A DNA stretch of 37,490 bases from Alphaproteobacteria bacterium (GTDB lineage: Bacteria > Pseudomonadota > Alphaproteobacteria > Sphingomonadales > Sphingomonadaceae), in NCBI GenBank assembly GCA_018823905.1, contig JAHJHL010000034.1, positions 1-37,490 on the forward strand, read 5' to 3'. Shown piece after piece: positions 22,229 to 37,490 of the stretch. The notes under the pieces were generated by a model, which was given only the letters and a program-made list of their open reading frames with translations, ran no database searches and was not told the DNA's origin. How positions within the stretch are numbered: position 1 is the first letter of the stretch; each line of letters opens with the position of its first letter. The position numbers and the translations under genes are program-made.

Positions 22229-23158
22229 TCAATCAAAAGTCTCGCTTGTGCGGGGAGCATAGTCGAGAGCTTCGAGCTCGAGGCCAGGCGATGCCGGATC
22301 CCATTCGCATCGCCGCGTGACCTTGGCGAGGTCGGGAGCGCTCACGACGAAGCGCTCATCGTAGCGCGCGTACAGCATGTCGAAATAGCCCGCGAGATTG
22401 AGCGGGCTGTCGCTGGGTGGGTAGGAAGAGAGGAGCGCGCCTTTGGTGTCGCCATGCATCTCGACAAGCCCGAAGCCGATCGCTTCGTAACGACTGACAT
22501 CATTGCGAATGCCGCGCCGCCCGGCCAGCTGACGAAGGGCATTGTGGAAGCGAATGATCATTTCGACGGGAGCGCCACCCTCGGTCATCGCGATGTCGTT
22601 GCTGGCCAGTGCCTTCGTACCCTCGGGAGCGTCCGCCAGCTCGTCGGCGACCTCCTCCGCATCATCGAGCGCGCGTTCTACCAGCCGGTTTGCGCGAAGA
22701 AGAACGAGATAGCCCAAGACGAGCGCAGGGTAGGTGATGTGCAGGTTGGTGCACTCGCCGATCGTTTCTTCCATGCGATTCGTAAGATTGCGAAAGGCCC
22801 CGGTCACCCCCTTGCACGAGACGGCCAGCACGGGTCCAATCCCTTCGCGAGTCACGACCACGTCGACATTCTTGGTCTTGAGCCCGCCGAGCACAGTGCG
22901 CTCGCCCCCGCGCGCAAGGTCGGGATCGAAATGGAGCAGCGGCGGTTTGCCCGGCCGGCGCTGCACTCGAAAGGGCGGCCGGGGGACAATGTCGTCGGGG
23001 TCGAAGCCGCCTTCGACCACCAGCCGGCTGGCAACATACCAGTGCAAAGGCTTGATGTGGCTCGCGCTTTGGGTCTTGCCCGTGAATTCGGCAAAGGCCG
23101 ACAATGCGGCCGCCTGATTCGTCCATTGGCAGCTTTTCGCGTCGAGATCAGTTGGCAT
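22229..23158 (-). CDS. Candidate type II restriction endonuclease / R-M partner
   Basis: A 309-residue protein directly downstream of, and overlapping by 11 bases, an N6-adenine methylase gene, the usual place for the cognate endonuclease. Segments seen: SHIKPLHWYVASRLVVEGGF near residue 33, KTKNVDVVVTREGIGPVLAVSCKG (residues 94-117) and NLTNRMEETIGECTNLH. The VDVV...SCK part could be a PD-(D/E)XK-like site with D99 and K116 but Ser in the usual Glu/Asp position, so the catalytic assignment is weak. No helicase or ATPase motif is seen. Endonuclease function rests mainly on gene order and size. Confidence 0.6.
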   Translation of the reverse strand: MPTDLDAKSCQWTNQAAALSAFAEFTGKTQSASHIKPLHWYVASRLVVEGGFDPDDIVPRPPFRVQRRPGKPPLLHFDPDLARGGERTVLGGLKTKNVDVVVTREGIGPVLAVSCKGVTGAFRNLTNRMEETIGECTNLHITYPALVLGYLVLLRANRLVERALDDAEEVADELADAPEGTKALASNDIAMTEGGAPVEMIIRFHNALRQLAGRRGIRNDVSRYEAIGFGLVEMHGDTKGALLSSYPPSDSPLNLAGYFDMLYARYDERFVVSAPDLAKVTRRCEWDPASPGLELEALDYAPRTSETFD

Positions 23159-24620
23159 AATGGCGCCAGCGCTGCAGCCGGATCACGCCATCGCTCACTT
23201 CTTCGTGCGAAGTCCGGCCGGCGATCGGATCGCCGGGAAACAAGATCCGGCTCGCCTCGCGTGGTTCCAGTTTTAGCATCCCGCCCCCCAAAGCATGTCC
23301 CTCGATTTCGCAGCTTAGCCGTACGAAAGGCGACGACCAGCTTGGCAAGAATTTCGACGCAAGCCCCGCGTCGCGAACATGCACGCCGTGGACGCTGTTC
23401 GTGCAGGTAACTGCAGCCTTGTTGTTGACCAGATTGGCGGCGCGTCCCGACATATAGCTCATGAAATATTCGGGGACTTGGACGTCGGGCACGGCATACC
23501 AAGGCGTCCGGTTGCGGCACTTATATCCCTGCCTGGCTTCGTGGCCGGCACTACTGTCAAGATACTGCTTTACCGCGAGCGGCAGATCGTCGCCGCGCCG
23601 CAGACGCAGAAGCAGGACCTTGTCGTCCCGCTGCTTCCAGGCTGCGACAGTGTCGGAGGTGAGCGGACCGGGCGGCATGGCGCGGCCATTGCGTAACGAA
23701 GGTTGAAGGAGAGCCGCCGGAATCTTCCAGCGTTTCGCCTCGGAGGGACGAAGATGAAAAAACTCATTGTGGCCGCTCACGTAGCCGATGCCGACCTGCG
23801 CGAAATCGCCGAGCCGGCGGCTCTCGCCGTTGAGGGCAACCTCGGCATAGAGGCCGCGAACGGACGCGGGCAGCAGATAAGGACGCAGCCGACAGTTCCA
23901 GACCCGCCGCCATTCGCCGACGTCGATCCGGATATCGGCGGGCGGCGGCTCGAAAGCGCCGACGAACCGATCTAGCGCGGTAAATTCGATGGCATCGGTC
24001 CTGCTGCCATAACCGTCAGCGAAAAGCAGCCAGCAGTCTTCCGAAAGCCCCGGAAAGAGTTTCTCGCGTACAGCCACGACCTTTACGGTGGAGAAAGAGG
24101 CGACGAGATACTCAAGCAGCGGCGCGGCGTAGGGCGCGTGGCCGATCTCGGCAGGCACGACGAAAGCCATCCGGCCGCCGCGTTGCAGCAGTCCGGCGGT
24201 GGCGACTAGGAACGGAGCCCACGATGAGGCGAGGCCCGAAAAGGATGCGCCGAGCTGTTGGCAGAGAGCAAGCGCCCGGCGACGCATGTCGCCCTTGAAC
24301 GTCTGATAGCGAATGAAAGGCGGGTTTCCGGCCGCTGCCTCGAAGCGCTCGGACGTGTCGGCCGCCCAAGCGAAGAAATCACCTTCGTGCACAAGCGCCC
24401 CCGGCACGCGCGCGATCGCTTCATGCGCCGAGAGCGGATTTTGCTCGATGCCGACGCTGTTCGGATGATGACGCAGAAACTCGCCGTCACCGCAGGATGG
24501 ATCCAGCATCCGGTCGCCCGATTTTCGGCACGCCCAAGAAACAAGCGACCCAGCGACATCTGCAGGCGTGAAATATGCACCCGAACGCTTTTGCGAATAT
24601 TCCGGAGCGATCGTCACCAT
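23148..24620 (-). CDS. N6-adenine DNA methyltransferase, gamma class (Eco57I/TaqI type)
   Basis: A 490-residue DNA methylase that should place N6-methyladenine at its target. Motif order is that of gamma-class enzymes: motif X KRSGAYFTPADVAGSLV (about 11-27), motif I LDPSCGDGEF (39-48), acidic E59, motif III GDFF (80-83) and catalytic motif IV NPPF at 99-102. After the catalytic half comes a target-recognition region of about 250 residues. The ATG at 24620, preceded by AAAGGTGG, begins just before motif X; 47 upstream in-frame codons have no such support. A sigma-70-like promoter (TTGCAC, 17 bases, TATGTT) lies at 24671-24699. The gene overlaps the candidate endonuclease by 11 bases. Confidence 0.92.
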   Translation of the reverse strand: MVTIAPEYSQKRSGAYFTPADVAGSLVSWACRKSGDRMLDPSCGDGEFLRHHPNSVGIEQNPLSAHEAIARVPGALVHEGDFFAWAADTSERFEAAAGNPPFIRYQTFKGDMRRRALALCQQLGASFSGLASSWAPFLVATAGLLQRGGRMAFVVPAEIGHAPYAAPLLEYLVASFSTVKVVAVREKLFPGLSEDCWLLFADGYGSRTDAIEFTALDRFVGAFEPPPADIRIDVGEWRRVWNCRLRPYLLPASVRGLYAEVALNGESRRLGDFAQVGIGYVSGHNEFFHLRPSEAKRWKIPAALLQPSLRNGRAMPPGPLTSDTVAAWKQRDDKVLLLRLRRGDDLPLAVKQYLDSSAGHEARQGYKCRNRTPWYAVPDVQVPEYFMSYMSGRAANLVNNKAAVTCTNSVHGVHVRDAGLASKFLPSWSSPFVRLSCEIEGHALGGGMLKLEPREASRILFPGDPIAGRTSHEEVSDGVIRLQRWRHYAN

Positions 24621-24670
24621 CTTTTCCACCTTTATCCAGATCTCCGTTAGCCGCAACCGAGTAAGTGGAG

Positions 24671-24699
24671 AACATATCAGGAACATGGCTCGTGTGCAA
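24671..24699 (-). promoter_or_regulatory. Promoter for the methylase gene, with flanking inverted repeat
   Basis: On the - strand, TTGCAC (24699-24694), a 17-base spacer, and TATGTT (24676-24671), placing the start point about 40-45 bases before the ATG at 24620. Immediately upstream, sharing a base with the -35, is an imperfect inverted repeat with arms ATTAT (24699-24703) and ATAAT (24717-24721). This is a plausible operator. It implies that the R-M-like trio has its own promoter and is not merely the tail of the Lamassu-like operon. Confidence 0.5.
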
Positions 24700-24817
24700 T
24701 TATGATCACATGGTCGATAATCGAGATTTTCGGCCGACCGTAACATCGCCCGATTCAACATCCGCTGATTCCGAACCCGACACGTTACGGAGCGATGATC
24801 GTGCCTCGACCCTCACG

Positions 24818-26953
24818 CTATGCGGCAATCACCGACTGCTGGCCGTCCAGAAACGGCGTCTCGATGCTGCGCATTGCTGGCCCTTCCCGCGTCCAATCAT
24901 CGAAGATCAACGTGATCATTCGCTCGTCGGGTCGAACTGGGCGAAGCTTGCGCTGCAGCAGCCCCATTAGCCGATCCTCATGCGTCGATACGATGATTTG
25001 GCGATGTTCACGGAAGCGGCGAAGCACGTCGACCAGTCCAAGCAAATTGATCGCGTCGAGGCTCTGGAGTGGATCATCGAGTATCGTTGCGCCAAGCTTG
25101 AGTGACGGGAGGGCAAGGTTGATTGCGAGGAACAGCGACACTGCGAATGAATTCAGTTGAGAGCTGCTCAGCAACGGACCGGCATCCTGCGGCTCAACGT
25201 CTATATCGGGGTCGCAGATGGCGACGTCGAGCTTCCCGCGTCCTCCTTTCATCGCCGCAAGCAGCTGCGTAACGCGAAACGTCGGGTGGGGGTCAATGCG
25301 ACTATAAATTCGCTGAAACAGCGGAGCGATCCGGTCGATCTGCTGCCTGGTCACTGCAAGCGAAGCATCGCGCAAACCATCGATGATATTCCCGGCAACA
25401 GCGTGCGTTTCTTCCAAGCTCGCAACACGACCCGCCGTCACACTCAGCCGCTCCGTCAAAGCTGCTCGTTCCGACTGAAGCCCTTCGCGGCGTTGCTGCT
25501 CCCCCAAACGCAGGACTTGCAGGGAGAATCCCTCTGCATCGGCCACCAACCGGGCCACTTGTTCGAGGGTCGTGTGCGCTTCAGCCTTTCGAGCATCCAG
25601 CGCTGGCTTTGCAGCGTCACCGAACGCGATTCCGAGATCCGAAAGCCGGGACGCAAAGAGAGCCCGTCGTGCATCGCGGTCCCTCTGCGCGAGGGTCAGA
25701 TCAAGCCGATCACCCTTCACTTTTTCCAATTGCCGCTGCAGTTCGCTGCGCGTGGCATTCAAAGAGCCGAGCCTGTCCTCTGAGGCCGGTTCCGAGGGTT
25801 GCGACGCAGCCGAGATCAATGCCTGAAGGTGCGCCACCGTGTGAGCGAAATCATGGCTTTGTTCGCAAACGGGGCAATGGTCGCCGAGGTCTTCAAGGGC
25901 AAGTTTTGCGAGTGTGGCTGTACGATTGGCGCGGTCGGCCGCGACGACGCGCCTTTCACGATCCTCGGACAATCGGACGATTTCGGTCTGCAGATCTTGT
26001 TCGGCGATCGAGATTTTATGCGAGAGATCCTGTTCCGCAGCCTCAAGAATTTCGACCTCGCCGGCCGCAAGCGCAGTAGAGGAGAATTCGCCGAGCTGCT
26101 CGATCAGACTTTCGGCCGTCGCCGCTTCTCGCTCCAAACGGGCCCGTTCTGCCCCTAATATCTTGAGAAACCGGTCGAGCAACGCGGCTGTACCGGGTGC
26201 TTCGTCCATTCCGATGCGAGCACGCCCCAAGAGGGTCACGGCCTTTTCGAAAGCAGCTTCGATCTGCGGCCGAGTCGCATCGCTTTGGATCGCATTGGCT
26301 TCGGCGAGGCGCGCAATCTGCTCGTCGATCTGGACTACCCGAGACTGAAGCGGGGCGATCTCGTCCTTGCGTAGAGCGGTTGTGTTGCGCGACCACAAGT
26401 TACGACTTTTTTCCAGGGCTGATTGCAATTCCAGAATGGTGCCTGCACCGATCACCTCGCTGACGAGCGCGAACCGGTCTGCAGACGTGTCGGAATCGAT
26501 GAATTGTCGGACGAGATCCTGCTGGAGGTAAACGCCGCGGGTCAGGATGCTCCCGAGAACCTTGCGCGCATCCTGGCGCTCTTCGAGATGGGGTAACAAG
26601 AGTTTGCCAATTCTCTGGTCTGCAACCGCCCCTTCGAATTCTTCGCTGCCAATGCGGAGGCGTGTCAAATTCTGCGTACCATCGGTGGAGCGCGTGACCA
26701 CAACATCGCCATTCGGGCCGGTCAGCGTAAGAGACACGCGAGCGCGCCCTTCGCGGGCGTAGAGCGAAACCGGCGAACCACGATCAGCGAAACGAGAGAT
26801 GCTTCCGGAAAGCGCCCACAATATGGCGTCGAGAAGCGAGGTCTTTCCGACTCCGTTCGCGCCTTGCAGGACGATGACATCTGCGTCGAGATCGAGCGCC
26901 ACGTGGCGAGCGAAGGCACGGAAGCCTTCGATTTCAATCGCTTTGAACCTCAT
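24818..26953 (-). CDS. lmuB: SMC/Rad50-like ATPase with zinc hook, Lamassu LmuB type
   Basis: A 711-residue SMC-family ATPase. The ATP head is split between the two ends: Walker A GANGVGKTS (31-39) near the N-terminus; ABC-signature-like LSSSQL (595-600), Walker B TILDDP (623-628), D-loop D633 and switch His658 near the C-terminus. Between them are long heptad-like coiled coils broken by a C360-P-V-C363 zinc-hook motif, the Rad50-like dimerisation apex. Size and gene order (SIR2, small protein, SMC) match LmuB/DdmC of Lamassu anti-phage or anti-plasmid systems, where the SMC complex senses foreign DNA and releases the effector. The ATG overlaps the preceding stop by four bases (ATGA). Housekeeping RecN or SbcC are unlikely given size, context and the lack of SbcD. 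Confidence 0.88.
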   Translation of the reverse strand: MRFKAIEIEGFRAFARHVALDLDADVIVLQGANGVGKTSLLDAILWALSGSISRFADRGSPVSLYAREGRARVSLTLTGPNGDVVVTRSTDGTQNLTRLRIGSEEFEGAVADQRIGKLLLPHLEERQDARKVLGSILTRGVYLQQDLVRQFIDSDTSADRFALVSEVIGAGTILELQSALEKSRNLWSRNTTALRKDEIAPLQSRVVQIDEQIARLAEANAIQSDATRPQIEAAFEKAVTLLGRARIGMDEAPGTAALLDRFLKILGAERARLEREAATAESLIEQLGEFSSTALAAGEVEILEAAEQDLSHKISIAEQDLQTEIVRLSEDRERRVVAADRANRTATLAKLALEDLGDHCPVCEQSHDFAHTVAHLQALISAASQPSEPASEDRLGSLNATRSELQRQLEKVKGDRLDLTLAQRDRDARRALFASRLSDLGIAFGDAAKPALDARKAEAHTTLEQVARLVADAEGFSLQVLRLGEQQRREGLQSERAALTERLSVTAGRVASLEETHAVAGNIIDGLRDASLAVTRQQIDRIAPLFQRIYSRIDPHPTFRVTQLLAAMKGGRGKLDVAICDPDIDVEPQDAGPLLSSSQLNSFAVSLFLAINLALPSLKLGATILDDPLQSLDAINLLGLVDVLRRFREHRQIIVSTHEDRLMGLLQRKLRPVRPDERMITLIFDDWTREGPAMRSIETPFLDGQQSVIAA

Positions 26954-27543
26954 AACCCGCCCCGATGACTATGGAGCCGATCGAGAGGGGGTTCGATAGC
27001 GCGAAAGGCGTCGACGACGACGCGCACTGAGGCCGGCTCGGCGAAGTCTTTCAGAAGGTCTGGAAGTCCTTCAAGGACATCACGGGCAGCCTCCGACGAG
27101 GCTGGTAGGCCGAGCGGCAGGAGCAAATCGAGGGTCCTTGCAACATCCGCGCTCGTGCGGAGCATGGAACCGGTCGCCACGATCTTACGCACCCGGGTGG
27201 TATCGCGCTCTATCTCAACCATTTCATGGCGATCAAGTGGTTCCCCTGCACAAAAGAGGACCAGATATCCATCCCACGCCTTCGGCGCGGACCGGGCAAG
27301 GCGGCGAGACAGGAGTTCCACGAGATCAGCCTGAGCCTCAGACCAACTCTCAACAAGTTGAGGCCATGTCTCGAACGCGACAACCGAGACTACACTGAAT
27401 TCGTCTTCCGCAAGCAGTGCATCGTCACCAACCCTGCCCACATCGGTCAAATCGCGGGCGACGCGATATTTGTTGGAAGAAAGGACCTCACCCGCCAGCG
27501 CGATCATCGTCGAAGTCTCGATCGGATTTACCTCAGGCGGCAT
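26950..27543 (-). CDS. lmuC: Lamassu middle component (LmuC/DdmB-like)
   Basis: A 197-residue, mostly helical acidic protein (many Glu/Asp and Leu; e.g. VESWSEAQADLVELLSRRLA), with no catalytic motif that I can see. It is assigned from position: between a SIR2 effector gene and a zinc-hook SMC gene, as in the three-gene form of Lamassu. The ATG at 27543 has GGAGAG seven bases upstream and overlaps the SIR2 stop by 11 bases; a longer frame from 27579 would lie deeper inside the SIR2 gene. Its end overlaps the SMC start (ATGA). The three proteins should be made as a stoichiometric complex. Confidence 0.72.
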   Translation of the reverse strand: MPPEVNPIETSTMIALAGEVLSSNKYRVARDLTDVGRVGDDALLAEDEFSVVSVVAFETWPQLVESWSEAQADLVELLSRRLARSAPKAWDGYLVLFCAGEPLDRHEMVEIERDTTRVRKIVATGSMLRTSADVARTLDLLLPLGLPASSEAARDVLEGLPDLLKDFAEPASVRVVVDAFRAIEPPLDRLHSHRGGL

Positions 27544-28939
27544 GGAGCAGCTCTCCGATGCGTTGCATGAAATCTGCATCGTTGGCCGAGATCACTGGCG
27601 TCCCGATGGGGCCGTCTATAATGTCTGCGGGGTCGGCATCGCCAACGATGTCAACATGAGACAGGTGCACAGCGCCGGGGGCGACGCCGCCGACGAGGAC
27701 AAAGTCAGGCGGTGCAACCGAATGCTCCGCGACCAGGTCACAGATGGCACGGGCGCGAGGTTCAAGAGCGGCAAGGCGGCGCACGCCACCTCCAGATGCC
27801 AAAACGAGCTGCCCGACGGTCCGGTTCTGCCGCGTCAGTACCCAAGTACCAGCGGACGTAGGTTCTGCGCTCATATCGAAATGCTGGGCGAGTTGCGCGA
27901 GCTTCAAGAGCGGTTCCGCCAGCATTTCATCATCCTCGAGCCGGTGTGGCCGATAGAGGTGCCGCGGTTCCAATGCCGCAAAGGCGCGGAGCTTGCCGAG
28001 CGCCAGCAGCGACAACGGCCCGCATCTCGAAGCGAGCCCGTCGAAGCGGTCCTGATCGGCCTGATCATGCATATTTTCCGCCAGCAGTTCCTTACCATGG
28101 GTCCGAAGCTTATGCACCTGGTCTGCTGCGATACGCTCTGCCATCTTAGCCAGAACAGCGTTCCAGCCTCCCTGAATGAATCGTTCCTCCGGAATGAGCA
28201 GCTGTTGAGCAAAATGGTTGTTCGCAAAGGCGGACACATCGGCTTGATACAACGTCTTGTTTCCGTCGAGCGCGCCTTGAATCATCTCGACGGTCGCGGT
28301 GAGCACAGGCGCTGCGGAGCCCAGGCCAACGAAAAGGATGGCTGGCGCTCCAAGCACCTGCTGCGCGACGATCTCCTCCCATTGCCCCTTCCAGCCCGCA
28401 TCGATCACGTCGGCGCGAAGAATGAGCTCACCGCTGGCGCTATTCGCGGTGCCGTGGAGATGCACGACGGCCGCCCGGACGGGCACTTGCTGACCGGATT
28501 GACTGATGACCGCTATGCTCACGCCTAGCTCGGACGCTGCATTTTGCACCGCGAGATCGAAGTTCAGCGAAAGAACGTGACTGACAACACGTTCTTCCAT
28601 CAAGGCGACCAAATACTTATATCCTGAGTTTGGCCGCGCAAGGCGCATCCGTTCGAGCGGAAATCGTTGAACGATGCTCTCTTGGCTCCCTGTCTCGTCG
28701 AAGACCAGCTGGGCTAGAGCAGAGAGATCCCGCGGATTTTCGCATTGCCCAGCTAACAGAACATTGTCGAGAACGAGCTGTCGCTCAGTCTCCTCTGACA
28801 AATCGCCCGCCAACGGCATCCCCGTCGGTGGCTCGATTGAACATCCGGCGCCAATAACAATTGCGACTTGGCCGCCGCCCGGCGCAGCCAGTGCTTGAAG
28901 CAAATCGGCGGGAATAACGACCAAAAGCCTCTCCATCAT
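27533..28939 (-). CDS. lmuA: SIR2-domain effector protein (Lamassu-Sir2 LmuA type)
   Basis: A 468-residue protein with an N-terminal SIR2 fold. Seen: the nucleotide-binding GAGCSIEPPTGMPLAGDL (about 30-47), SLNFDLAVQNA (the Asn/Asp motif of SIR2), VVHLHGTAN (the His of the HG motif) and ILFVGLGS. SIR2 domains in anti-phage systems usually consume NAD+ to stop growth of the infected cell. The C-terminal half is unassigned and may contact the SMC complex. I chose 28939 because AGGCGG lies nine bases upstream and the sequence turns conserved soon after; 14 earlier codons are open but lack a ribosome site. It is first in the operon with lmuC and lmuB. NADase activity is inferred from the family. 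Confidence 0.86.
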   Translation of the reverse strand: MMERLLVVIPADLLQALAAPGGGQVAIVIGAGCSIEPPTGMPLAGDLSEETERQLVLDNVLLAGQCENPRDLSALAQLVFDETGSQESIVQRFPLERMRLARPNSGYKYLVALMEERVVSHVLSLNFDLAVQNAASELGVSIAVISQSGQQVPVRAAVVHLHGTANSASGELILRADVIDAGWKGQWEEIVAQQVLGAPAILFVGLGSAAPVLTATVEMIQGALDGNKTLYQADVSAFANNHFAQQLLIPEERFIQGGWNAVLAKMAERIAADQVHKLRTHGKELLAENMHDQADQDRFDGLASRCGPLSLLALGKLRAFAALEPRHLYRPHRLEDDEMLAEPLLKLAQLAQHFDMSAEPTSAGTWVLTRQNRTVGQLVLASGGGVRRLAALEPRARAICDLVAEHSVAPPDFVLVGGVAPGAVHLSHVDIVGDADPADIIDGPIGTPVISANDADFMQRIGELLHAA

Positions 28940-29127
28940 CGAATTCTGCCGCCTGAATAGCGCGTATTGGCGAAGATGCACGGCTAATTGTCACTGTAGC
29001 GCGGCGCACGTCGTTGCGTACGCGCTGGTTCGGTATGAACCGATTATGAGCAGTGATTTCGCGACCAAAATAAAACGTGAGATCGGAGAATGCCCACGAT
29101 TTAGAAGCAGCGTGTTGGGTCCGGGCT
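28940..29127 (-). promoter_or_regulatory. Upstream region of the SIR2-SMC operon
   Basis: No gene is credible here. It should contain the promoter of the SIR2 operon. A perfect inverted repeat GGTTC-GGTAT-GAACC (29027-29041) lies about 90 bases before the SIR2 start and is the best candidate operator. I found no good -35/-10 pair by eye. Confidence 0.35.
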
Positions 29128-29188: not shown

Positions 29189-29587
29189 TCAGCGTCGGCC
29201 TGCTCTGCTCTTCACCCAATTCCAAATCTTACTTATCCAATGAGCTTGTGTTCTTTTGGCAAAGTGCGCTTCCCGATAAGCACGCTCATGCGATTGGCCT
29301 GCGCTAACCTCCGCGTCACTCCACTGCCTTGCCCAGCGGACTTCGCCATCTCGAATGACATAGTGCGAACGACACGGCCGCTGCCAGCTCCCCACCGATG
29401 GCCAAACCGACGGACCATTCAGACCAACTGTAACTGCCCATTCCGCGGGTCCGAGCGGTGTTCGAATTTTTTCTCCACAGCCACATGCACATAAGTGCGC
29501 TGCGGTCCCATATTTTTCGGAGACGTAAATAATGCTCGGCTCCAACACTTTCGGCATGAAATCGACTTGGCGTAGCTCAAACCTCAT
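29189..29587 (-). CDS. DUF6527 protein (predicted Ubl-processing partner)
   Basis: A 132-residue DUF6527 protein. The family pattern is clear: ISEKYG-like YVSEKYGTAAHLCACGCGEKI (21-41), LGPAEWAVT and CRSHYVIRDGEVRWA (72-86). H31, C33, C35, C37 and C72 with S74 and H75 could form a metal site or an active site. DUF6527 genes recur beside bacterial ubiquitin-like and E1 genes. As I recall, related proteins in Bub-type systems have been proposed as peptidases; I cannot verify this here. Its ATG overlaps the E1 stop by 11 bases, so it is translationally coupled. Likely role: trimming the Ubl or removing it from targets (inference). It is the last gene of the operon. Confidence 0.85.
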   Translation of the reverse strand: MRFELRQVDFMPKVLEPSIIYVSEKYGTAAHLCACGCGEKIRTPLGPAEWAVTVGLNGPSVWPSVGSWQRPCRSHYVIRDGEVRWARQWSDAEVSAGQSHERAYREAHFAKRTQAHWISKIWNWVKSRAGRR

Positions 29588-30758
29588 CGCGCTGACTCAT
29601 AACTCGCATGTCACCGATCTCGAAGAGGAGATTATAAAGGGCCTCGTCATCGACGTAAAAGCCAAGCTGTTTCTTATATAGAATAACTGCCAAGCACGCG
29701 TTCAGGGCGTTCAACTCAGCGATCTGCATATTCGTTTTATAGATATCGTCTTGGGCGTCGTGTGTGGGCACCAGCCGCATGTCGCGTACTTCATTGGCAC
29801 GATCTTTCGCGAAATGAGTGACTCGCATGCTGCCCTTGATAGGCCCGTTTCGCCGCGCCAAGCCCATGCCAACATCGATGAACGGGATGCCCTTTGCGAT
29901 TAAGAGATCAACGATTGCCGCGCGCGCAGTGCCCTTATCCACGCAGACGAAAGCGAACGTCACACCGATCAATTCGTCATGACTTCCTGAGTCGATGAAT
30001 TTTGTCTCGATTTTTAAGCCGTGCCGGAAGTTTTCATAGCGGTTTGCATAGACCTCGGCCTTCGTCATTCCGAGTTCTTCGCCCAGTAAACGGCCGGGTG
30101 ATCGGTAGGCGTTGTGAACGTGGTAACCGTCAGCATCGAAACCGCGGACTTCGCGCACCGGAGTTTTGACCATCAAATCCAGAACGTATCCGCCCGTGCC
30201 GCCGAGACCGATCACGGCGACGACTTCATCGTTGAAAGCCGCAGTCAGATCATCAATCTCCGCGCGCGCGGTCAGCATGTCCCTGAACTTGAATACACTT
30301 TCGCCTTCCGCGTTGTCGTAAGTGCGGAACGTCAAGGGCGTCACGCCATGCAGTTCTATCGCGGGTCCGGAAATGATCGTGGCGTAGCGATCGATCTTGT
30401 CGAAGAAATCGACATAACCAGCATCCGGCTTGTTCGAGAACTGCCGTTCTACGATAACGCGGGGCTCGGTATCGCTCAGGGGTACAGTATGCGGCGTATC
30501 CCCGATATTTAGTATCGGTCGTCCATCAAGATCGTGAGGTGCGCCGCCTGCAAATGACACCTGATGGTTTTTCTGCGTCACCTTCACTTCATCGACAAAC
30601 TCGAGAAGCGTGACGATCGCGCCCCATTGCAATTCACGCGCGTTGTTGAGGTAGGGGATATCCCGCACAACGAGATAATCACTGTCAAAAGTGACGGCAT
30701 ATCCCCGCTCAACCAGTCGGCGGATGTCGTCGTTATGACTGGCCAGTATCGGTAACAT
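29577..30758 (-). CDS. E1-like Ubl-activating enzyme, DUF6791 + ThiF domains
   Basis: A 393-residue E1-like adenylyltransferase. Residues 1-165 match DUF6791 (RGYAVTFDSDYLVVRDIPYLN, then SNKPDAGYVDFFDKI and IISGPAIEL). The ThiF/MoeB fold follows: ATP loop GLGGTGG (184-190), FDADGYHVHNAYRS (207-220) with the canonical Asn and Arg, K233, and VCVDKG with D274. It should adenylate the C-terminus of the Ubl encoded just upstream. Only two cysteines exist (C272 in the VCVD strand, C355 in the late helix), and neither lies in a typical E1 catalytic-Cys loop, so transfer may not be a normal thioester step. It overlaps the Ubl gene by 26 bases and the DUF6527 gene by 11. Base composition here is locally low (28 G/C in the 60 bases from 29641). 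Confidence 0.9.
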   Translation of the reverse strand: MLPILASHNDDIRRLVERGYAVTFDSDYLVVRDIPYLNNARELQWGAIVTLLEFVDEVKVTQKNHQVSFAGGAPHDLDGRPILNIGDTPHTVPLSDTEPRVIVERQFSNKPDAGYVDFFDKIDRYATIISGPAIELHGVTPLTFRTYDNAEGESVFKFRDMLTARAEIDDLTAAFNDEVVAVIGLGGTGGYVLDLMVKTPVREVRGFDADGYHVHNAYRSPGRLLGEELGMTKAEVYANRYENFRHGLKIETKFIDSGSHDELIGVTFAFVCVDKGTARAAIVDLLIAKGIPFIDVGMGLARRNGPIKGSMRVTHFAKDRANEVRDMRLVPTHDAQDDIYKTNMQIAELNALNACLAVILYKKQLGFYVDDEALYNLLFEIGDMRVMSQRDEV

Positions 30759-31002
30759 TGAATTCCATCCCGTCTTTCACCTTAACCGAAGCGCCAGGCG
30801 ACAGAATGCCCTCGTGCTTCTTCCCCTCGCCCTTGCGGTAAGTCACCGAGTAGGTGCGCTCTGGGTGTTGCGGAAAATCGGGAAATTCGAGAGTCACCAC
30901 CTGGGCATAGCTGATGTCTGCCCCTTTAGGCCATTCGTGCGGGGTTGCCTCGACGATGATCGTCACCGTCTTATCCTTCTTATCTTCAGCTTCGTTAGTC
31001 AT
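30733..31002 (-). CDS. Bacterial ubiquitin-like protein, multiubiquitin-domain type
   Basis: An 89-residue single-domain ubiquitin-like (beta-grasp) protein. It matches the multiubiquitin family: TVTIIVEATPHEWPKG (12-27), ISYAQVVTLEFP (30-41), HPERTYSVTYRKG (47-59), EGILSPGASVKVKDGMEFNV (64-83). It ends TDTGQS without a Gly-Gly tail, as in this bacterial family, so the C-terminus is either used directly or trimmed first. ATG at 31002 is preferred: GGAG lies nine bases before it. Another ATG at 31017 overlaps that ribosome site. It is second in the operon, 46 bases after the DUF2188 gene, and overlaps the E1 start. Confidence 0.9.
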   Translation of the reverse strand: MTNEAEDKKDKTVTIIVEATPHEWPKGADISYAQVVTLEFPDFPQHPERTYSVTYRKGEGKKHEGILSPGASVKVKDGMEFNVTDTGQS

Positions 31003-31048
31003 GTGCCTATTCTCCATAGCCGCGCGACACCCGCCGCCCGGCGATTAG

Positions 31049-31270
31049 TCATCCCTTCGGCGGGAAGGGGTCGTTGCCGTACGAATTCGCGTCCCGGATG
31101 CGTCCGTCCGGGCGGTGGATAATCACCTCGCCGCGTTCGCGGATCGCCGTGCTGCGCGCGGCATCGCTGGCCCCGGACTGCGTTGCGTGGGTTGACCCAA
31201 CGCGACTCGCTCCCTCGCGCCGGGTCGCCCAGCCATCCCCATGCGGGACTACATGAATCCTCTTTGACAT
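31049..31270 (-). CDS. DUF2188 domain protein, first gene of the Ubl operon
   Basis: A 73-residue DUF2188 protein: KRIHVVPHGDGWATRREG (3-20), SVGSTHATQ-like middle (SRVGSTHATQSGASDAAR), and the tail VIIHRPDGRIRDANSYGNDPFPPKG with the family's conserved NSYGNDPFPP ending. These small basic/acidic proteins have no known reaction. The ATG at 31270 follows GGAGAAGTCGA, a clear ribosome site; the open frame further upstream covers the regulatory region and was rejected. It lies 46 bases before the Ubl gene and after the - strand promoter at 31319-31347. It may be an adaptor, a DNA-binding partner or a conjugation target (speculation). Confidence 0.85.
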   Translation of the reverse strand: MSKRIHVVPHGDGWATRREGASRVGSTHATQSGASDAARSTAIRERGEVIIHRPDGRIRDANSYGNDPFPPKG

Positions 31271-31358: not shown

Positions 31359-31381
31359 CTATGTGATTGACATTCACATAG
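31359..31381. promoter_or_regulatory. Inverted-repeat operator between divergent operons, with + strand promoter
   Basis: A perfect 8+8 inverted repeat CTATGTGA-TTGACAT-TCACATAG. Its centre contains TTGACA (31367-31372), a consensus -35 for the + strand; GATGTT follows at 31389-31394 after 16 bases and would give a start point near 31401, 27 bases before the GTG of the XRE gene. An operator covering the -35 is typical of autorepression by an XRE protein. It also sits next to the divergent Ubl promoter, so one repressor could govern both operons. TCACAAT is repeated at 31332 and 31351. Confidence 0.65.
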
Positions 31382-31427
31382 TGTGCGTGATGTTGACATT
31401 GCCATGTGTCTGGAACAAACAGGTAAC

Positions 31428-31778
31428 GTGACCCACCCAAATCCAATCAATGTTGCCTTCGGTAGCGCCGTAGCCAAGCGGCGCGACGAGCTGGGCATGA
31501 CCCAAGCCGAGCTTTCAGGACTAACTGGCCTGTCGCGGGCTTCCATTGCCAGTATCGAGAAAGGTCGGCAGAACGTACTTCTGCATCACGTCTACGACCT
31601 TGCCCAAGCGCTCCGCTTCCGTCACGTCGGCGACCTGCTTCCAGCCCGTCCTCCCTCCCTTAGGAGGGAGGTTGAGGTGAGGGTGACACATGGCGCTATC
31701 TCAGACCGCGAGACCGCGGACGTGCTTGAGCTGATCGGGCGTTTCGTCCACACGGGTGATGCGGAAGTCCGGTCGTGA
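31428..31778 (+). CDS. XRE-family HTH transcriptional regulator
   Basis: A 116-residue Cro/CI-type regulator with the helix-turn-helix at KRRDELGMTQAELSGLTGLSRASIASIEKGRQN (split over about residues 17-49), then VYDLAQALRF. The frame is open from 31383, and another ATG is at 31404, but these overlap the promoter. The GTG at 31428 has AGGTAAC just upstream and starts before the family N-terminus (MTHPNPINVAFGSAVAKRR), so I use it. It is followed by an ImmA/IrrE protease gene with a 4-base GTGA overlap, the classical repressor/anti-repressor-protease pair. The inverted repeat at 31359-31381 is its likely binding site. Confidence 0.88.
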   Translation: MTHPNPINVAFGSAVAKRRDELGMTQAELSGLTGLSRASIASIEKGRQNVLLHHVYDLAQALRFRHVGDLLPARPPSLRREVEVRVTHGAISDRETADVLELIGRFVHTGDAEVRS

Positions 31779-32299
31779 GGCCCTCGGATTCTGCGGGCGC
31801 GAGGCGAGCTGCGGTGAAACTGTTGGCCGACGCGGGTGTCCGTTCGGCTCCTGTCCCGGTTGAACGCATCGTTAAATCTAGGGGCATCACCCTGCAATTC
31901 GCGCCGCTCGGAGACGAGCTGTCCGGGATGGCCTACATCAAGGATGGTCTTAAGATCATAGGCGTCAATGCGCTTCACCATCCGAACCGCCAGCGATTCT
32001 CGGTCGCACATGAACTCGCGCACCACGTCCTACACGTGGCCGAGATCACTGAGGCGGTCCACGTCGATCGAGGATTTCGCGTGCTACACCGAGACAAGGT
32101 GTCGGCAGAGGGAATCGATCCCCTTGAGGTGGAGGCCAACGCGTTCGCGTCTGAGCTGCTCATGCCGGCGACGCTGCTCGCCGACGCGATAGGGGATGCC
32201 GGACTGGATCTCGATGACGACGAGGCCGTCGACGCGCTGGCGCGCAAGTTCAAGGTTAGCGCGTCGGCTATGCGTAACCGCCTGAGCTACTCTTTGTAG
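31775..32299 (+). CDS. ImmA/IrrE-family metallopeptidase
   Basis: A 174-residue zinc peptidase of the ImmA/IrrE (COG2856) family. Zinc motif HELAHH (H79-E80-x-x-H83) with third ligand E120 in EVEANAFASELLMP. In ImmR/ImmA pairs and in IrrE/DdrO the protease cleaves a partner XRE repressor upon DNA-damage or other signals, switching genes on. The partner XRE gene is directly upstream, overlapping by four bases (GTG start). The next gene encodes a DEDDh exonuclease, so derepression would raise nuclease levels (inference). Confidence 0.92.
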   Translation: MRPSDSAGARRAAVKLLADAGVRSAPVPVERIVKSRGITLQFAPLGDELSGMAYIKDGLKIIGVNALHHPNRQRFSVAHELAHHVLHVAEITEAVHVDRGFRVLHRDKVSAEGIDPLEVEANAFASELLMPATLLADAIGDAGLDLDDDEAVDALARKFKVSASAMRNRLSYSL

Positions 32300-32309
32300 C
32301 GCTGGTCGG

Positions 32310-33728
32310 GTGGGATACGTCTTCTTTGACACCGAGACCACCGGACTTTCGCCGGCATTCGACCAGATTTTGCACTTCGCGGCGATCCACACCGACCATG
32401 AGCTGGTGAGGATAGACGACTTCGAGCTCAGATCTCGGCTGCAGCCACACGTAGTTCCGCACCCCGCCGCAATGCTCACGAATCGCTTGTCGATCGAGCA
32501 GATGCTAGATCGCACCCTCAAGACGCACCCGGCAATGATTTCGGAGGTAAGAGCCAGGCTGTTGGCTTGGTCGCCTGCTATCTTCGCAGGCTTCAACTCG
32601 ATCGGATTCGATGAGGAGATGCTGCGCCACGGCCTGTTCCAGACGCTGTTTCACCCTTATCTTACGAGTGGAAGAGGTTGCGGACGGGCCGACGCTTACG
32701 GATTGGTGCAGGCTGCTTGCGCGCTCAACCCCGGATGTCTGGCGGTCCCGCTCAAGGTTGATGGTCGGCGTGACTTCAGGTTGGCGTCCCTTCTTGCAGC
32801 CAACGGTCTCGGCACAGGAGCCGCCCACGACGCCATGTCCGACGTCTCTGGAACGGTGGAGCTTTGTCGGCTCGTCAAGGACCGCTCGCCTGCAGCCTGG
32901 GAGCGCTTCGTCCGCCTGTCGAACAAAGTCGCCGTGGCGGAAATGGTGAACGAGGAAGAGGGTTTCGTCCTCACAGAATTCTTCGGCGGCGAGCCCTTCC
33001 ATCGAGCGGTGGTGTGTATTGGTTCAATCCCAGACAATGCCAACGGAAGGTTCTGCATAGAATTGGGGCGCGATCCGGACGACTGGCGTTTGATGTCGGA
33101 CGATCAGATGCGCAGCGAAATAGCCCGGAAGGGAACGCCCCTCAGGCGTCTGAAGGTGAACGGCGCGCCAACTCTCACGCCGCTCGAAGAGGCCGACGAC
33201 CTGATTCCGGGTCTAGATATTGAGGCTGCGCGCGATCGGTCTCGCCGCTACCGTTCCGCAAGCGACATTTGCGCAAGGCTGATCCGCGTCTACACGAGCG
33301 ACTGGGGGAGCGCAGAGCAGTCCCCGTTCCCGGAGGCATGCCTCTACTCCGGCGGATTCGTAAATGATGAAGACCTATGGACGTGTGGCGACTTTCATGA
33401 TGCGACATGGGCAGAACGCGTGGCAACGGTTTCGAGGCTCCGTGATCCCCGCCTTCGTTTTCTCGCGGATCGTCTCATCTACTTTGAGAACCGCGGGGCG
33501 CTCTCGGGCGACCAGCAGGCGCTGGCCGATTACGCGCTGGCCGACCGACTGCTACATCCCGTCGCGGGAGGACCACTGACGCTTGGCGGGGCGATCGAGG
33601 AGATCGATCGGCTGGCGGTGCAAGCGGACCCGTCGTCTATGGCGCTGCTCTCTGACTACCGAAACTATCTGACGGACAGGGCGGCGCGGGCATACGCCTT
33701 CCGTAATAGCTCGAGTGCAAACATCTGA
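32310..33728 (+). CDS. Exonuclease I (SbcB)-like DEDDh nuclease
   Basis: A 472-residue 3'-5' exonuclease-like protein. The DEDDh residues are visible: FFDTETTGL (D7, E9), FNSIGFDEEMLRHGLF (D101), and AHDAMSDVSGTVELCRLV (H173, D178). The FN-x-x-FD and AHDAM-x-DV patterns are those of exonuclease I (SbcB), which degrades single-stranded DNA from 3' ends. The C-terminal half (from about 200) aligns in layout with SbcB SH3-like and helical parts (DPDDWRLMSDDQMR, TLTPLEEADDLIPG). The GTG start at 32310 is ten bases past the protease stop. As sphingomonads may lack or carry another sbcB elsewhere, whether this is an accessory paralogue is unknown. Location in the island with XRE and ImmA suggests a regulated defence or repair role. 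Confidence 0.85.
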   Translation: MGYVFFDTETTGLSPAFDQILHFAAIHTDHELVRIDDFELRSRLQPHVVPHPAAMLTNRLSIEQMLDRTLKTHPAMISEVRARLLAWSPAIFAGFNSIGFDEEMLRHGLFQTLFHPYLTSGRGCGRADAYGLVQAACALNPGCLAVPLKVDGRRDFRLASLLAANGLGTGAAHDAMSDVSGTVELCRLVKDRSPAAWERFVRLSNKVAVAEMVNEEEGFVLTEFFGGEPFHRAVVCIGSIPDNANGRFCIELGRDPDDWRLMSDDQMRSEIARKGTPLRRLKVNGAPTLTPLEEADDLIPGLDIEAARDRSRRYRSASDICARLIRVYTSDWGSAEQSPFPEACLYSGGFVNDEDLWTCGDFHDATWAERVATVSRLRDPRLRFLADRLIYFENRGALSGDQQALADYALADRLLHPVAGGPLTLGGAIEEIDRLAVQADPSSMALLSDYRNYLTDRAARAYAFRNSSSANI

Positions 33729-33854: not shown

Positions 33855-34577
33855 CTAGATGCTGAGAGGCTGGACCTTGATCGTGCATGTCACGGCTTTC
33901 TTCTTCCGCTCAGCCTGCTTTTCGCAATCCGCGACCTTCTTTTCGTTCCCCTTGTAAAGTCTGGAAGCGCGTGCGACCGCCTCCCACCGGCGGGGATCGC
34001 CTACCCGCATTAACCGAACACCGGCGCCCCACATGTCACGCTCCAACCGGGTGGCGGCACGCTTCTCCGGCCAATGCCAATGGTCGGGCACGGCCCGATC
34101 GACCGCGGACGGGATAGTGCAGCCCGCCATGAACGCCAGGATTGCGGCAACGCCGGCGCTGATTGCGACCCAAAAATTCTGCTGCTCCTGCGTCCGTGCA
34201 GAAGCGACGACGAGGCTGATCGATTGCACCGCCTCATCGAGACGCGAACGCGCGTCGCGTAAGGCTTGTAGTTCGGTCTCGCGGGCGCGCGCACCCGCCA
34301 ACCTCATCTGCTCGCCCATAACCTCTGGCGTGAGCGCCAGCGCAGGGCGTTCGGCCAACCGCTTGATTGCCTCGCTCGCCTTTTTCCAGTTCTGATCGAT
34401 CTTCGCGAGATCGTCAGTGTAATCCCGCCCCACCACATCGTTCAGACGCAAGCCGAACTGATCGATGGCAGCGGCAAGCGTCGACATGTTGCCCGACATT
34501 CTGTCGAAGGCCTGGTCGAGGGCGATATCTTCGGCGGCGACGTCGTCGCCAAGATTTTCTGGGTCACTGTCCTGCAT
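33855..34577 (-). CDS. DUF6118 family membrane protein
   Basis: A 240-residue DUF6118 protein, commonly found next to traA in sphingomonad and rhizobial mobile elements. N-terminal acidic part (EDIALDQAFDRMSGNMSTLAAAID), a long coiled coil (about 60-125), one transmembrane segment FWVAISAGVAAILAFMAGCTIP (about 134-155) and a basic C-terminal domain. It starts nine bases after the TraA stop in the same direction. Role is unknown; a membrane-anchored helper of conjugation is plausible from the neighbour only. Confidence 0.82.
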   Translation of the reverse strand: MQDSDPENLGDDVAAEDIALDQAFDRMSGNMSTLAAAIDQFGLRLNDVVGRDYTDDLAKIDQNWKKASEAIKRLAERPALALTPEVMGEQMRLAGARARETELQALRDARSRLDEAVQSISLVVASARTQEQQNFWVAISAGVAAILAFMAGCTIPSAVDRAVPDHWHWPEKRAATRLERDMWGAGVRLMRVGDPRRWEAVARASRLYKGNEKKVADCEKQAERKKKAVTCTIKVQPLSI

Positions 34578-34586
34578 GGCGACAAC

Positions 34587-37490
34587 CTAAAGCCCCATGC
34601 CGAGGGAACGCGAGGGGCGGAGATATTCCTGGAGCGCCTGAGACACCGAATGTTTCTCAAGCGATTTCAACCCAAGCTCGTGGGTGCGATTTCGGAGCAG
34701 CGACTCGAGTTGCGGGTCGCGGTGCAGGCTCTTTGCCATGTCGTTAAGGTGCGCTCCGACACGCTTGGCGCCAACTTGATCATAGTTCGCTTTGTGCTCC
34801 CGGAGCTGCTTCGACCCCGCCTGCCACTCTGCAACGAAGCGGTCAGCCCGGGCCGGTGCGTCGATGCGCAGTTTGGTTTCGGTGCGCATCGCTTCCATAG
34901 CACGCTGCGTGCGGCCGCTCGCCGCCTCGGCGGTCAGCGACGGGTCATTGCGGAGCGCCGTGGCAAAATCCTTTGCCCCATCGCTGCGGAGAGCATCGAT
35001 GTCGCGCGCCGCCGCATCGAGGCTTTTCTGCTGGTGGATGACTGGCGACAGCCCCTTGGAATGCATGGCATCGATCTCGCGTTGCGCGCGGGCATAGCGC
35101 TCGACCGCCTTGTCTAGTGCGCTACGATCGGCCGCCGCGCCCAGCCCCCGCGCGCTGACGCGGATATTGCGGGTGCGCTCGGGCCGTTGCTGCGCGGGAG
35201 CCGCTTTGCCGAGGGATGCGGTAGAGACGGTAGGTTTGAGCTTCAGGCCTGCGAACATGCTGCGTTTCGGTTCGACCTTGGGCGCGGCCTCTTTGGTGCG
35301 ATAGTCGCTGGCCATGTCCTTGCCGCGCTCGCGACTGAGCGCACGAACGAGTTTGGACTGATCGCGAAAGTCGTCGCGGCCATAATGGAGATCCACTCCG
35401 TCCCGGTGTCGCGACATGGCAACATACGCGCCGTGCCGATCCATCCCCGGCGTCGCGAGCACCTGCACACGGTCGACCGTCATGCCCTGCGCCTTGTGGA
35501 TCGTGGCAGCATAGCCATGATCGACATGGGCATAATCCTTCAGGTCGAAGGCGACGCGCCGCCCGTCGTCGAGCATGACGGCCATGCGCATCCGGTCGAT
35601 ATTCTGCACCGTGCCCAGCGAGCCGTTCTTCACGCCCATCTCGCGCTCGTTCCGGAGGAACATGACACGGTCGCCCTCGGCGAACATCCGCTCGCCGCGC
35701 TCGACGTTGATCTCGATTTCCGGGCCAAGCGCGCCGCCCGCCCGCAGCCTGTCCCGAACGTCGTCATTGAGCTGGCGCACTTCGTCATTGGTGTGGGTAA
35801 GAATGATCCGGCTCGCATCGGGATGACGTTGCCGATCGCGATCCCACGCATCGACAAGTTCGGTGCGCGCTGCATCGCGGGTGTCGGCGGCGTGGACATG
35901 CCCAGCATCGGCATAACGACCGATCGCCTCGCCGGTCCGGCCCGTAGCCAGCTCGCGCGTCGCATCGCGCTGCCATTCCTCATGCTGGCGGCGGATCGAA
36001 CTGATCTCGACGGCGCCGTGGCGTTCGGCAGCGGCGCGGAACGCGGCGCCCGCTTCGATCGCCTGCAACTGTTCAGGATCGCCAACGAGGACGACCTTGG
36101 CGCCCTGCTTCTCGGCTTCGGTCACGACACGCTCAAGCTGGCGTGTCCCGATCATCCCCGCCTCGTCGATGACGAGGATATGTTTGCTCGTCAGCCGATC
36201 GCGGTCGTTGGCCCATTGATGCTCGAGGCTGGCAAGCGTTCGCGAGCCGATGCCGGAACCATGTTCGAGACCCTCGGCGGCGATGCCCGACAGCGCGGCG
36301 CCCTGCACCTGATAGCCGGCGGCTTCCCACGCCTCCCGCGCCACGCCGAGCATCGCGCTCTTGCCGGTCCCGGCATAGCCGATGACATTGCTGACACCGC
36401 GCGCCGACGTGACATGCTCAAGCGCGCCGCGCTGTTCAGCGGAAAGTTCGAGACCGCGGCCGCTGGCGCGCGCCAATGCAAGCCCGCGATGACGATCGGC
36501 GACGCCATGATTGCGGCGCGCGTCGAGTGTTGCGGTCGCGCGTTCGAGCCGCTGCTCGGTCTCGATCATCGCACGCGACGTGAACCGATCCTCGCCGCGC
36601 CCATCCTTGCCCAGCGCGATCAGATCGGGCGACGCTTTCACCGCCCCCATGACGGCATCGAACTGGATTGTTCCGGCACTGTGCCGATGCACGAACATCG
36701 CGAGGTCGCGATTGGTGAAGGTCGCCTGGCCGTGGGTGATGCTGTCGAGCGCGATCGATGGGTTGCCGAGTATTTTCTCGCCGTTCCGCCGCGCAATTTC
36801 GAGATGCTCCTCGGCGCGGTCGACCTCAAGCCCCTGCTCCACCATTCGCGATGCGGCAGGACCGATCTTGTGCTGCGGCTCGAGGTCGATGCCCTGCGCT
36901 TCGAGACTGCGATGATCGATGCGTGCGTCGATGTCGAGCGATGCCAGGCGCTCATTGACATGATCGGCCCAGGCTTCACGCCAGTGGGTCAGCAGCTCCG
37001 TGCGGTTCCAATCCCGCACCTTGGCGCCGAACTCGGCGGATCCGTCGTCGCCGATCCGGATCTCGCGCATCGTCAGCATGACATGCGCGTGCGGCCGCGC
37101 CAGCCCGTCAGCGCCGATGTCCCAATGGACATTGAGATCGGCGATCATGCCGCGCTCGACGAACTCGTCTCGGACGAAGTCGCGGGCCAGCTCGATGCCC
37201 TGCCCCTCGGTCATCTCGCGCGGGATCGCGAACTCGATCTCGCGAGCGAGCTGCGCGTCTTTGCGGATCTCCGCGGCTTCGACGTCATTCCAGAGCTGTT
37301 CGCGGTCGCGCCATTCCTCCGGCGCGCCATCGGGGAGCAGCACTTCGCTGTGGACGACACCCGCCTTGTTCGAGAAATCATGGCTGCGGCCGAGGCGCTC
37401 ATCGTGAAGGCGATCGGCCGAACGATAGGCCGCCGCCGCGACCGCGCTGCTGCCGACGGCACGGGAAATCACTTTGGCCGAGAAATGGTA
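34587..37490 (-). CDS. traA: TraA-type conjugative relaxase/helicase (MOB_Q), start just outside window
   Basis: Nearly complete: the frame runs to the right edge (reading YHFSAKVISRAVGSSAV), so only about three residues, probably MAI, are missing. N-terminal MobA/MobL relaxase: catalytic Tyr in AAAAYRSADRL, and the metal-binding HxH in ARPHAHVMLTMRE (about residues 137-139). Then an AAA/UvrD-like 5'-3' helicase: Walker A GYAGTGKS (about 374-381), Walker B LVIDEAGM (about 443-450), and the C-terminal YAATIHKAQGMTVDRV with AMSRHRDGVDLHYG. About 970 residues, at the short end of Ti-type TraA proteins. The relaxase nicks oriT and the helicase unwinds the transferred strand. The upstream gene and any oriT lie outside the window. 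Confidence 0.94.
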   Translation of the reverse strand, partial: YHFSAKVISRAVGSSAVAAAAYRSADRLHDERLGRSHDFSNKAGVVHSEVLLPDGAPEEWRDREQLWNDVEAAEIRKDAQLAREIEFAIPREMTEGQGIELARDFVRDEFVERGMIADLNVHWDIGADGLARPHAHVMLTMREIRIGDDGSAEFGAKVRDWNRTELLTHWREAWADHVNERLASLDIDARIDHRSLEAQGIDLEPQHKIGPAASRMVEQGLEVDRAEEHLEIARRNGEKILGNPSIALDSITHGQATFTNRDLAMFVHRHSAGTIQFDAVMGAVKASPDLIALGKDGRGEDRFTSRAMIETEQRLERATATLDARRNHGVADRHRGLALARASGRGLELSAEQRGALEHVTSARGVSNVIGYAGTGKSAMLGVAREAWEAAGYQVQGAALSGIAAEGLEHGSGIGSRTLASLEHQWANDRDRLTSKHILVIDEAGMIGTRQLERVVTEAEKQGAKVVLVGDPEQLQAIEAGAAFRAAAERHGAVEISSIRRQHEEWQRDATRELATGRTGEAIGRYADAGHVHAADTRDAARTELVDAWDRDRQRHPDASRIILTHTNDEVRQLNDDVRDRLRAGGALGPEIEINVERGERMFAEGDRVMFLRNEREMGVKNGSLGTVQNIDRMRMAVMLDDGRRVAFDLKDYAHVDHGYAATIHKAQGMTVDRVQVLATPGMDRHGAYVAMSRHRDGVDLHYGRDDFRDQSKLVRALSRERGKDMASDYRTKEAAPKVEPKRSMFAGLKLKPTVSTASLGKAAPAQQRPERTRNIRVSARGLGAAADRSALDKAVERYARAQREIDAMHSKGLSPVIHQQKSLDAAARDIDALRSDGAKDFATALRNDPSLTAEAASGRTQRAMEAMRTETKLRIDAPARADRFVAEWQAGSKQLREHKANYDQVGAKRVGAHLNDMAKSLHRDPQLESLLRNRTHELGLKSLEKHSVSQALQEYLRPSRSLGMGL

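Follow-up and report, generated by a model that had tools for sequence, protein, structure and literature searches.

The stretch of DNA considered here (the window: 37,490 nucleotides, contig JAHJHL010000034.1 of assembly GCA_018823905.1, from an alphaproteobacterium of the Sphingomonadaceae) carries on its reverse strand a compact cassette of four genes, encoding a DUF2188 protein, a ubiquitin-like protein (Ubl), an E1-like protein in which an adenylation domain follows DUF6791, and a DUF6527 protein (Table 1). A preliminary description, made from the sequence alone, had recognized these families and their tight packing, and in this it was right: all the open reading frames (ORFs) were found where it had placed them, and each of the four proteins matches its Pfam family above the curated cut-off. 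The Ubl and E1 genes are directly adjacent, with no gene between them, and overlap by 26 bases; the E1 and DUF6527 genes overlap by 11 bases, while DUF2188 and Ubl do not overlap but are separated by 31 or 46 bases, depending on the choice of the Ubl start. The count of 89 amino acids (aa) first given for Ubl corresponds to a start at the second ATG, the longest ORF coding for 94. Missed at the first reading was a pair of genes of the CapH-CapP type, coding for a helix-turn-helix (HTH) and an M78 protein (together 31383-32299), which diverges from the DUF2188-led operon and shares a promoter region with it.

Table 1. Features of the cassette and of its surroundings, in coordinates of the window
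Feature	Position	Strand	Evidence and remarks
DUF2188 (PADLOC PDC-S16), 73 aa	31049..31270	-	First gene of putative operon; Pfam PF09954 2.2e-21, PADLOC PDC-S16 2.3e-31
Ubl of 94 aa (89 if started at second ATG), one Multi_ubiq domain	30733..31017	-	Pfam PF14452 1.5e-13; C-terminus -VTDTGQS
DUF6791-ThiF E1-like protein, 393 aa	29577..30758	-	PF20590 DUF6791 8.8e-42 (N-terminal), PF00899 ThiF 4.1e-9 (adenylation domain)
DUF6527, 132 aa, putative metal-binding partner	29189..29587	-	Pfam PF20137 5.5e-23
CapH-like HTH gene	31383..31778	+	Divergent from operon; Pfam HTH_3 1.4e-10, PADLOC capH 8.8e-10; true start maybe a downstream ATG
CapP-like M78 metallopeptidase gene	31775..32299	+	HELAH motif; Pfam PF06114 3.2e-26, PADLOC capP 5.4e-31
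Palindrome CTATGTGA-N7-TCACATAG, candidate CapH operator	31359..31381	.	Repeat search of divergent promoter region
ExoI/SbcB-like exonuclease	32310-33728		PADLOC RTasSbcB 2e-79; starts 10 bases after capP
Lamassu-like set downstream of cassette	24818-28981		LmuB-like SMC ATPase (PADLOC 5.8e-46)
Type II methyltransferase and neighbour weakly matching a restriction enzyme (0.0042)	22229-24761		PADLOC 1.9e-83
MobA/MobL-RecD-like relaxase and DUF6118 gene	33855-37472		Other side of cassette; sign of a mobile element

Relatives of the E1 protein were sought in the GTDB genome collection (84,980 species), which yielded 299 stretches, and the best 80, 51-79% identical, were kept. This set is partly redundant, as four of its loci (L042, L043, L044 and L058), which by title belong to metagenome-assembled genomes of different groups, look like one and the same locus, suggesting a binning error. 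According to the record titles, the 80 loci come from Pseudomonadota, Bacteroidota, Actinomycetota, Bacillota, Planctomycetota, Acidobacteriota, Verrucomicrobiota, Chloroflexota, Nitrospirota and other phyla. The Ubl gene precedes the E1 gene in all 80, and a DUF6527 match lies downstream in each of the 79 loci with at least 1.6 kb after Ubl. The first possible E1 start falls inside the Ubl gene in 80 of 86 loci, five show a gap of 1-18 bases, and in one the E1 is split. Ubl, DUF6791-E1 and DUF6527 are a fixed trio, in an order far beyond chance. This part of the gene order initially proposed is conserved, whereas DUF2188 as a fixed member is not.

The E1-like fold attributed to the 393-aa protein agrees with its structural model, for which the best matches in the PDB, by both Foldseek and VIA, are Bub E1s (9ea4, 9ea5, 9ea8, 9eae and 9eav), in the adenylation domain only. 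No cysteine is invariant among the relatives of this protein; the invariant residues of DUF6791 are H65 and S108. The cassette had been described as containing Ubl and E1 with no separate E2, and this still holds: Prok-E2_E (PF14462) has no gene in the operon and no match in the window's genome (assembly 95.6% complete). A search for E2 relatives in viral contigs found none either. Because a dedicated E2 was not found in its own genome, we call the cassette Bub-like and not Bub. Related Multi_ubiq operons (L139 and L145) carry both a Prok-E2_E domain and a JAB-ThiF protein, neither of which occurs in the window's operon, and in the JAB-ThiF proteins of this sister branch the place of DUF6791 is taken by JAB. 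No JAB domain was matched in the window's E1 protein by Pfam at E-values up to 1. On account of its position and of the invariant His and Ser, the most likely role of DUF6791 would be that of a hydrolase acting on the Ubl tail, trimming it and removing it from conjugates, in preference to an E2-like role.

Such an E2-like role deserves attention, nevertheless. E2 and E1 would then be fused in one protein, much as in Cap2 of CBASS; S108 would be the oxyester nucleophile, and the cassette would lack a protease instead of an E2. Beside the failure to find a separate E2, this is suggested by the secondary structure predicted for residues 1-140, in which helices are followed by four to five strands, a long loop, a short strand with S108 at its end, and a helix, an order recalling that of UBC, and by motifs that by eye resemble those of Prok-E2_E (QRWSRH against QRxFSNKP). 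However, comparison with 13 E2_E sequences by hhalign was not significant (probability 0.1%, E-value 0.41), a second comparison gave a similar result, and the domain sits in the place of JAB, whereas E2 of the sister branch is either fused to Ubl or separate. We consider it rather unlikely that DUF6791 is an E2, and retain the hydrolase as the preferred reading.

Another peculiarity of this branch is the C-terminal end of Ubl. The beta-grasp fold expected of this protein is indicated by the match of the family profile to the solved multi-ubiquitin protein 9cd2 (E-value 1.2e-15), a comparison of sequence profiles; 9cd2 ends with -KS, and the alignment extends to its final residue, Ser 222, after TD. 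The terminal residue is Ser in all 86 Ubls, and Gly is third from the end in 80 of them, mostly as -TGQS, the remaining ends being TSQS, TSES (two), TDKS, TVQS and SDKS. Overlap with the E1 start could impose such an end, but the five non-overlapping loci (L007, L038, L048, L075 and L078) keep TGQS. Stand-alone Ubls of E2-containing operons end with TTTEG in four cases out of six, with TTEGGAE in one and ATFGL in one, and with TGQS in none; where Ubl and E2 are fused, TTEG stands before the E2 in L139, L252, L253 and L257, but not in L145. In the window's branch either a two-residue tail of Ubl would be trimmed, or the terminal Ser itself would be used. A further operon variant was noticed in L142 (4017-8191), where CapH-CapP adjoins a Ubl ending with -DDNS, a 127-aa unknown protein, a ThiF protein and a HipA-like kinase.

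The third member of the trio, DUF6527, has H31, C33, C35, C37, C72, S74 and H75 invariant in 41 aligned sequences. The motif C33-x3-C37-x34-C72-x2-H75 is close to the one printed for type 6e operons (see below), C-x3-C-x35-38-H-x2-C, with a different order of Cys and His. Comparison of its model (pLDDT 90) with the PDB gave no fold assignment: the best Foldseek E-value was 0.66, and the top VIA matches are confined to the C-terminal helix, residues 90-132.

The position of DUF2188 appears to be of a different kind. Around the 80 loci (1.37 Mb), 19 DUF2188 genes are present, 17 of them directly upstream of Ubl on the same strand, at an ORF distance of 10-51 bases in 13 of the 14 cases measured and of 421 bases in one (L019). 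PF09954 and PDC-S16 are each matched by all 21 proteins compared, namely the window's copy, whose residues 1-73 align with positions 1-75 of PDC-S16, and 20 others taken from E1 loci. The supposed permanent membership of DUF2188 is further contradicted by the searched genomes having such an E1, as DUF2188 adjoins the E1 cassette in two of nine, the window's own among them, and by its occurrence at the head of CBASS and other operons beside CapH-CapP. A CapH or CapP hit lies within 3 kb in 17 of 17 loci with DUF2188 and in 41 of 55 without it (Fisher p 0.03), where the labels were assigned with profiles built iteratively on the window's own proteins, and were checked in part in Pfam; the capP profile also catches fused or longer M78 proteins.

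Among genomes drawn evenly, DUF2188 was present in 16 of 142 from the class and in 58 of 398 from the phylum. In 11 of 43 DUF2188 loci, capH and capP lie immediately upstream and divergent, in an identical arrangement. With the Pfam M78 model used as a control for the CapP labels, 31 genomes picked for having DUF2188 (42 DUF2188 and 60 M78 genes) contained 13 DUF2188-M78 pairs with starts at most 1.5 kb apart; leaving out the window's genome, 12 of 41 copies are so paired. The corresponding expectation of 0.05 presumes uniform placement and would be higher if both genes cluster in defence islands, which weakens this comparison; the constant geometry is a stronger argument for a link between DUF2188 and the regulator than the number of pairs. 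What follows CapH-CapP and DUF2188 varies: a patatin effector and a DncV-like cyclase in L189, a SMODS cyclase and a SAVED-HNH effector in L208, a Ubl-E2-like and a ThiF protein in L149, and a Ubl in L196. Since the same geometry recurs before differing downstream genes, the regulator seems to be a more regular companion of DUF2188 than Ubl is.

Five other loci (L151, L153, L194, L199 and L204) share a layout of CapH-CapP, DUF2188 and, 12-16 bases further, a protein of 386-478 aa, which is perhaps an undescribed immune operon. The downstream proteins tested there (the first genes of L151, L194 and L204 and the second gene of L153, 315-478 aa) have no Pfam or PADLOC match. In 57 of 443 published cases capK-capS is followed by DUF1508/YegP; kinship of DUF2188 with this family was considered and dropped after hhalign gave no match, with only three DUF1508 sequences in the comparison.

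One could suppose that DUF2188 is nonetheless integral to the Ubl pathway, as a target, carrier or E3, and is not a regulator. Its place upstream of Ubl on the same strand in 17 of 80 loci would fit, as would its presence in the E2-containing operon L251, on a plasmid of Rhizobium phaseoli (NZ_CP013577.1), where the named annotation gives, on one strand, HTH, ImmA/IrrE, DUF2188, multiubiquitin, E2/UBC, ThiF and DUF6527. This possibility is nevertheless unlikely, as the slot is empty of DUF2188 in 63 of the 80 Ubl-E1-DUF6527 loci, and the gene follows CapH-CapP before CBASS genes in L189 and L208, with no Ubl match within 3 kb. DUF2188 seems to be part of the damage switch, which is found next to antiviral systems of other kinds as well, and not of the machinery for tagging. 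No report of a link between DUF2188 and CapH-CapP was found in the open-licence literature: papers naming DUF2188, judged by title or abstract opening, included none on immunity, and those on CapP, CBASS and ubiquitin-like subjects did not mention it when searched.

In a 2016 paper on Synechocystis, 70% of PF14452 proteins were stated to adjoin toxin-antitoxin loci with a COG2856/DUF955 toxin (PMC4963859), and the HTH and M78 genes of the window could accordingly be an addiction module that merely stabilizes the cassette. We find this improbable, as later work describes such pairs as a repressor and a protease activated by single-stranded DNA (ssDNA) (PMC13373217), and the window's pair is divergent, with its promoter region shared with the operon. 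A role of the two proteins E1 and Ubl in sulphur transfer or in peptide chemistry, with no protein conjugates formed, is very improbable: in sequence the adenylation domain is indeed closer to ThiF and TcdA than to BubCD, but the nearest structures are Bub E1s, the DUF6527 partner is fixed, and the flanking genes are regulatory or defence-like, not cofactor genes.

We consider it likely that the cassette is a Bub-like operon for Ubl conjugation (of type 6e of Iyer et al., in the version without JAB) under the control of CapH-CapP. From the families, gene order, neighbours and conservation observed above, we infer the following course of events in this organism. CapH would repress the divergent promoter; once activated by ssDNA or by damage to DNA, the peptidase CapP would cleave CapH, as published for other CapH-CapP pairs, and the operon would then be expressed. 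The DUF6791-ThiF protein would adenylate the C-terminus of Ubl and work probably via oxyester intermediates, as reported for Bub, a route with which the lack of an invariant cysteine in this E1 is compatible. DUF6791 would most likely employ H65 and S108 in trimming the Ubl tail and in deconjugation; DUF6527 would be a metal-binding partner, perhaps involved in target choice, and DUF2188 a part of the CapH-CapP control module, outside the Ubl chemistry. The roles originally suggested for the cassette, in conjugation and deconjugation and against phage, are likewise inferences. A bolder proposal, of which we are somewhat more doubtful than confident, is that the CapH-CapP damage switch has in DUF2188 an unrecognized third component, which is the first product once the switch is on (for example, an anti-repressor, decoy or first-line effector) and is common to Bub-like, CBASS and unnamed operons, and that the window represents an E2-less branch with a Ubl end of its own, always closing with Ser and mostly -TGQS, which is trimmed by DUF6791 or used directly.

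Several observations weigh against this interpretation. E2 was found neither in the operon nor in the genome, although Bub systems have one. VIA Z-scores for an ordinary ThiF (23.0) and SUMO E1 (22.5) are near the BubCD value. Rows of the structure searches span mostly residues 151-393 and hardly cover the DUF6791 fold, so that the case for DUF6791 as a protease substituting for JAB comes down to its position and the two invariant residues. The match of the window's CapP to the capP profile, 242 positions long, is limited to positions 5-150. Finally, neither a CapH nor a CapP hit lies within 3 kb in 14 of 72 Bub-type loci, or nearby in 29 of 43 DUF2188 loci; thus, DUF2188 is not tied to CapH-CapP alone.

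The palindrome in the divergent promoter region has a score reached by 1% of 300 shuffles. A shared CapH operator motif was not obtained, since palindromes at p of at most 0.05 occur in 8 of 46 loci and have no common sequence. The genes surrounding the cassette (Table 1) look like a defence island, as judged from their database matches; two neighbours of LmuB weakly match SIR2 and ABC-3C middle-component (MComp1/LmuC-like) models, below the Pfam cut-offs. With a protease that senses ssDNA next to it, an exonuclease acting on ssDNA would make a neat feedback, but among the related loci searched the SbcB-like gene occurs only in the window and in L001, which is the window itself, and it was rejected as a component of the system. 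In L137 (6936-10319), an M78 domain is fused to a UvrD helicase and a PD-(D/E)XK nuclease, according to Pfam matches of that copy; genes of 1121-1157 aa lie near Multi_ubiq operons there and, with similar length, in L138, L139, L145, L147 and L158.

DUF2188, a small uncharacterized protein, becomes in this light a testable part of the timing of bacterial immune operons. A Ubl branch with no recognized E2 and with a C-terminus unlike that of its E2-bearing sister offers, in turn, a setting to ask which steps of ubiquitination are dispensable.

The operon class itself was first described in 2006, by Iyer, Burroughs and Aravind, as type 6e 'polyUbl' operons, including a version in which an unnamed domain X replaces JAB (PMC1779556). 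DUF6791 would correspond to this domain X. Both the domain-X version and the window have a Multi_ubiq-type Ubl (1-3 copies in type 6e), and a non-JAB N-terminus of E1, and both are sporadic and mobile; the separate metal-binding protein of type 6e has a putative counterpart in DUF6527. In the table row for type 6e there is, besides, an E2/RWD-like domain, either fused or separate, which may not be required in every version and was not found in the window, so the cassette is best filed as resembling type 6e rather than as a full member; DUF2188 and the regulator do not appear in the excerpted account of type 6e (PMC1779556).

Bub of Citrobacter (BubA-BubB-BubCD) shares with the window the Multi_ubiq Ubl, the structures closest to the E1 model, and CapH-CapP, which adjoins many Bub operons; the window differs in having no recognized E2 and in DUF6791 as the E1 N-terminus. 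Ye et al. (2026) reportedly describe for Bub an E1 related to BubCD, a dedicated E2 and oxyester intermediates, and probably also a protease of the Ser-His type and roles for the individual Bub letters. CapW, or CapH with CapP, accompanies 219 of 544 Bub operons (EMBO J 2026, PMC13373217), for which, according to the same paper, phage protection has not been shown.

The E2-containing branch (L139, L145 and L251) has the same Ubl family, a ThiF E1 and a DUF6527 or DUF6527-like gene, and L251 also has HTH-ImmA/IrrE and DUF2188; it differs from the window by its E2, by JAB (in L139 and L145) and by Ubl ends other than TGQS. Bil and type II CBASS are further E1-dependent conjugation systems found in bacterial defence islands. 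The BilABCD set is not matched, as none of the four cassette proteins gives a hit to Bil or JAB, and type II CBASS gives only weak E1-E2 matches in PADLOC via ThiF. The CapH-CapP regulator of CBASS and other immune operons corresponds to the HTH and M78 pair, divergent beside the operon; it comprises two genes in the published descriptions considered, whereas the window and other loci have DUF2188 at the same spot. The cassette thus belongs with a known class of operons, as a Bub-like, non-JAB variant with no recognized E2 and probably controlled by CapH-CapP, and its DUF2188 points to a possible extra component of the switch.
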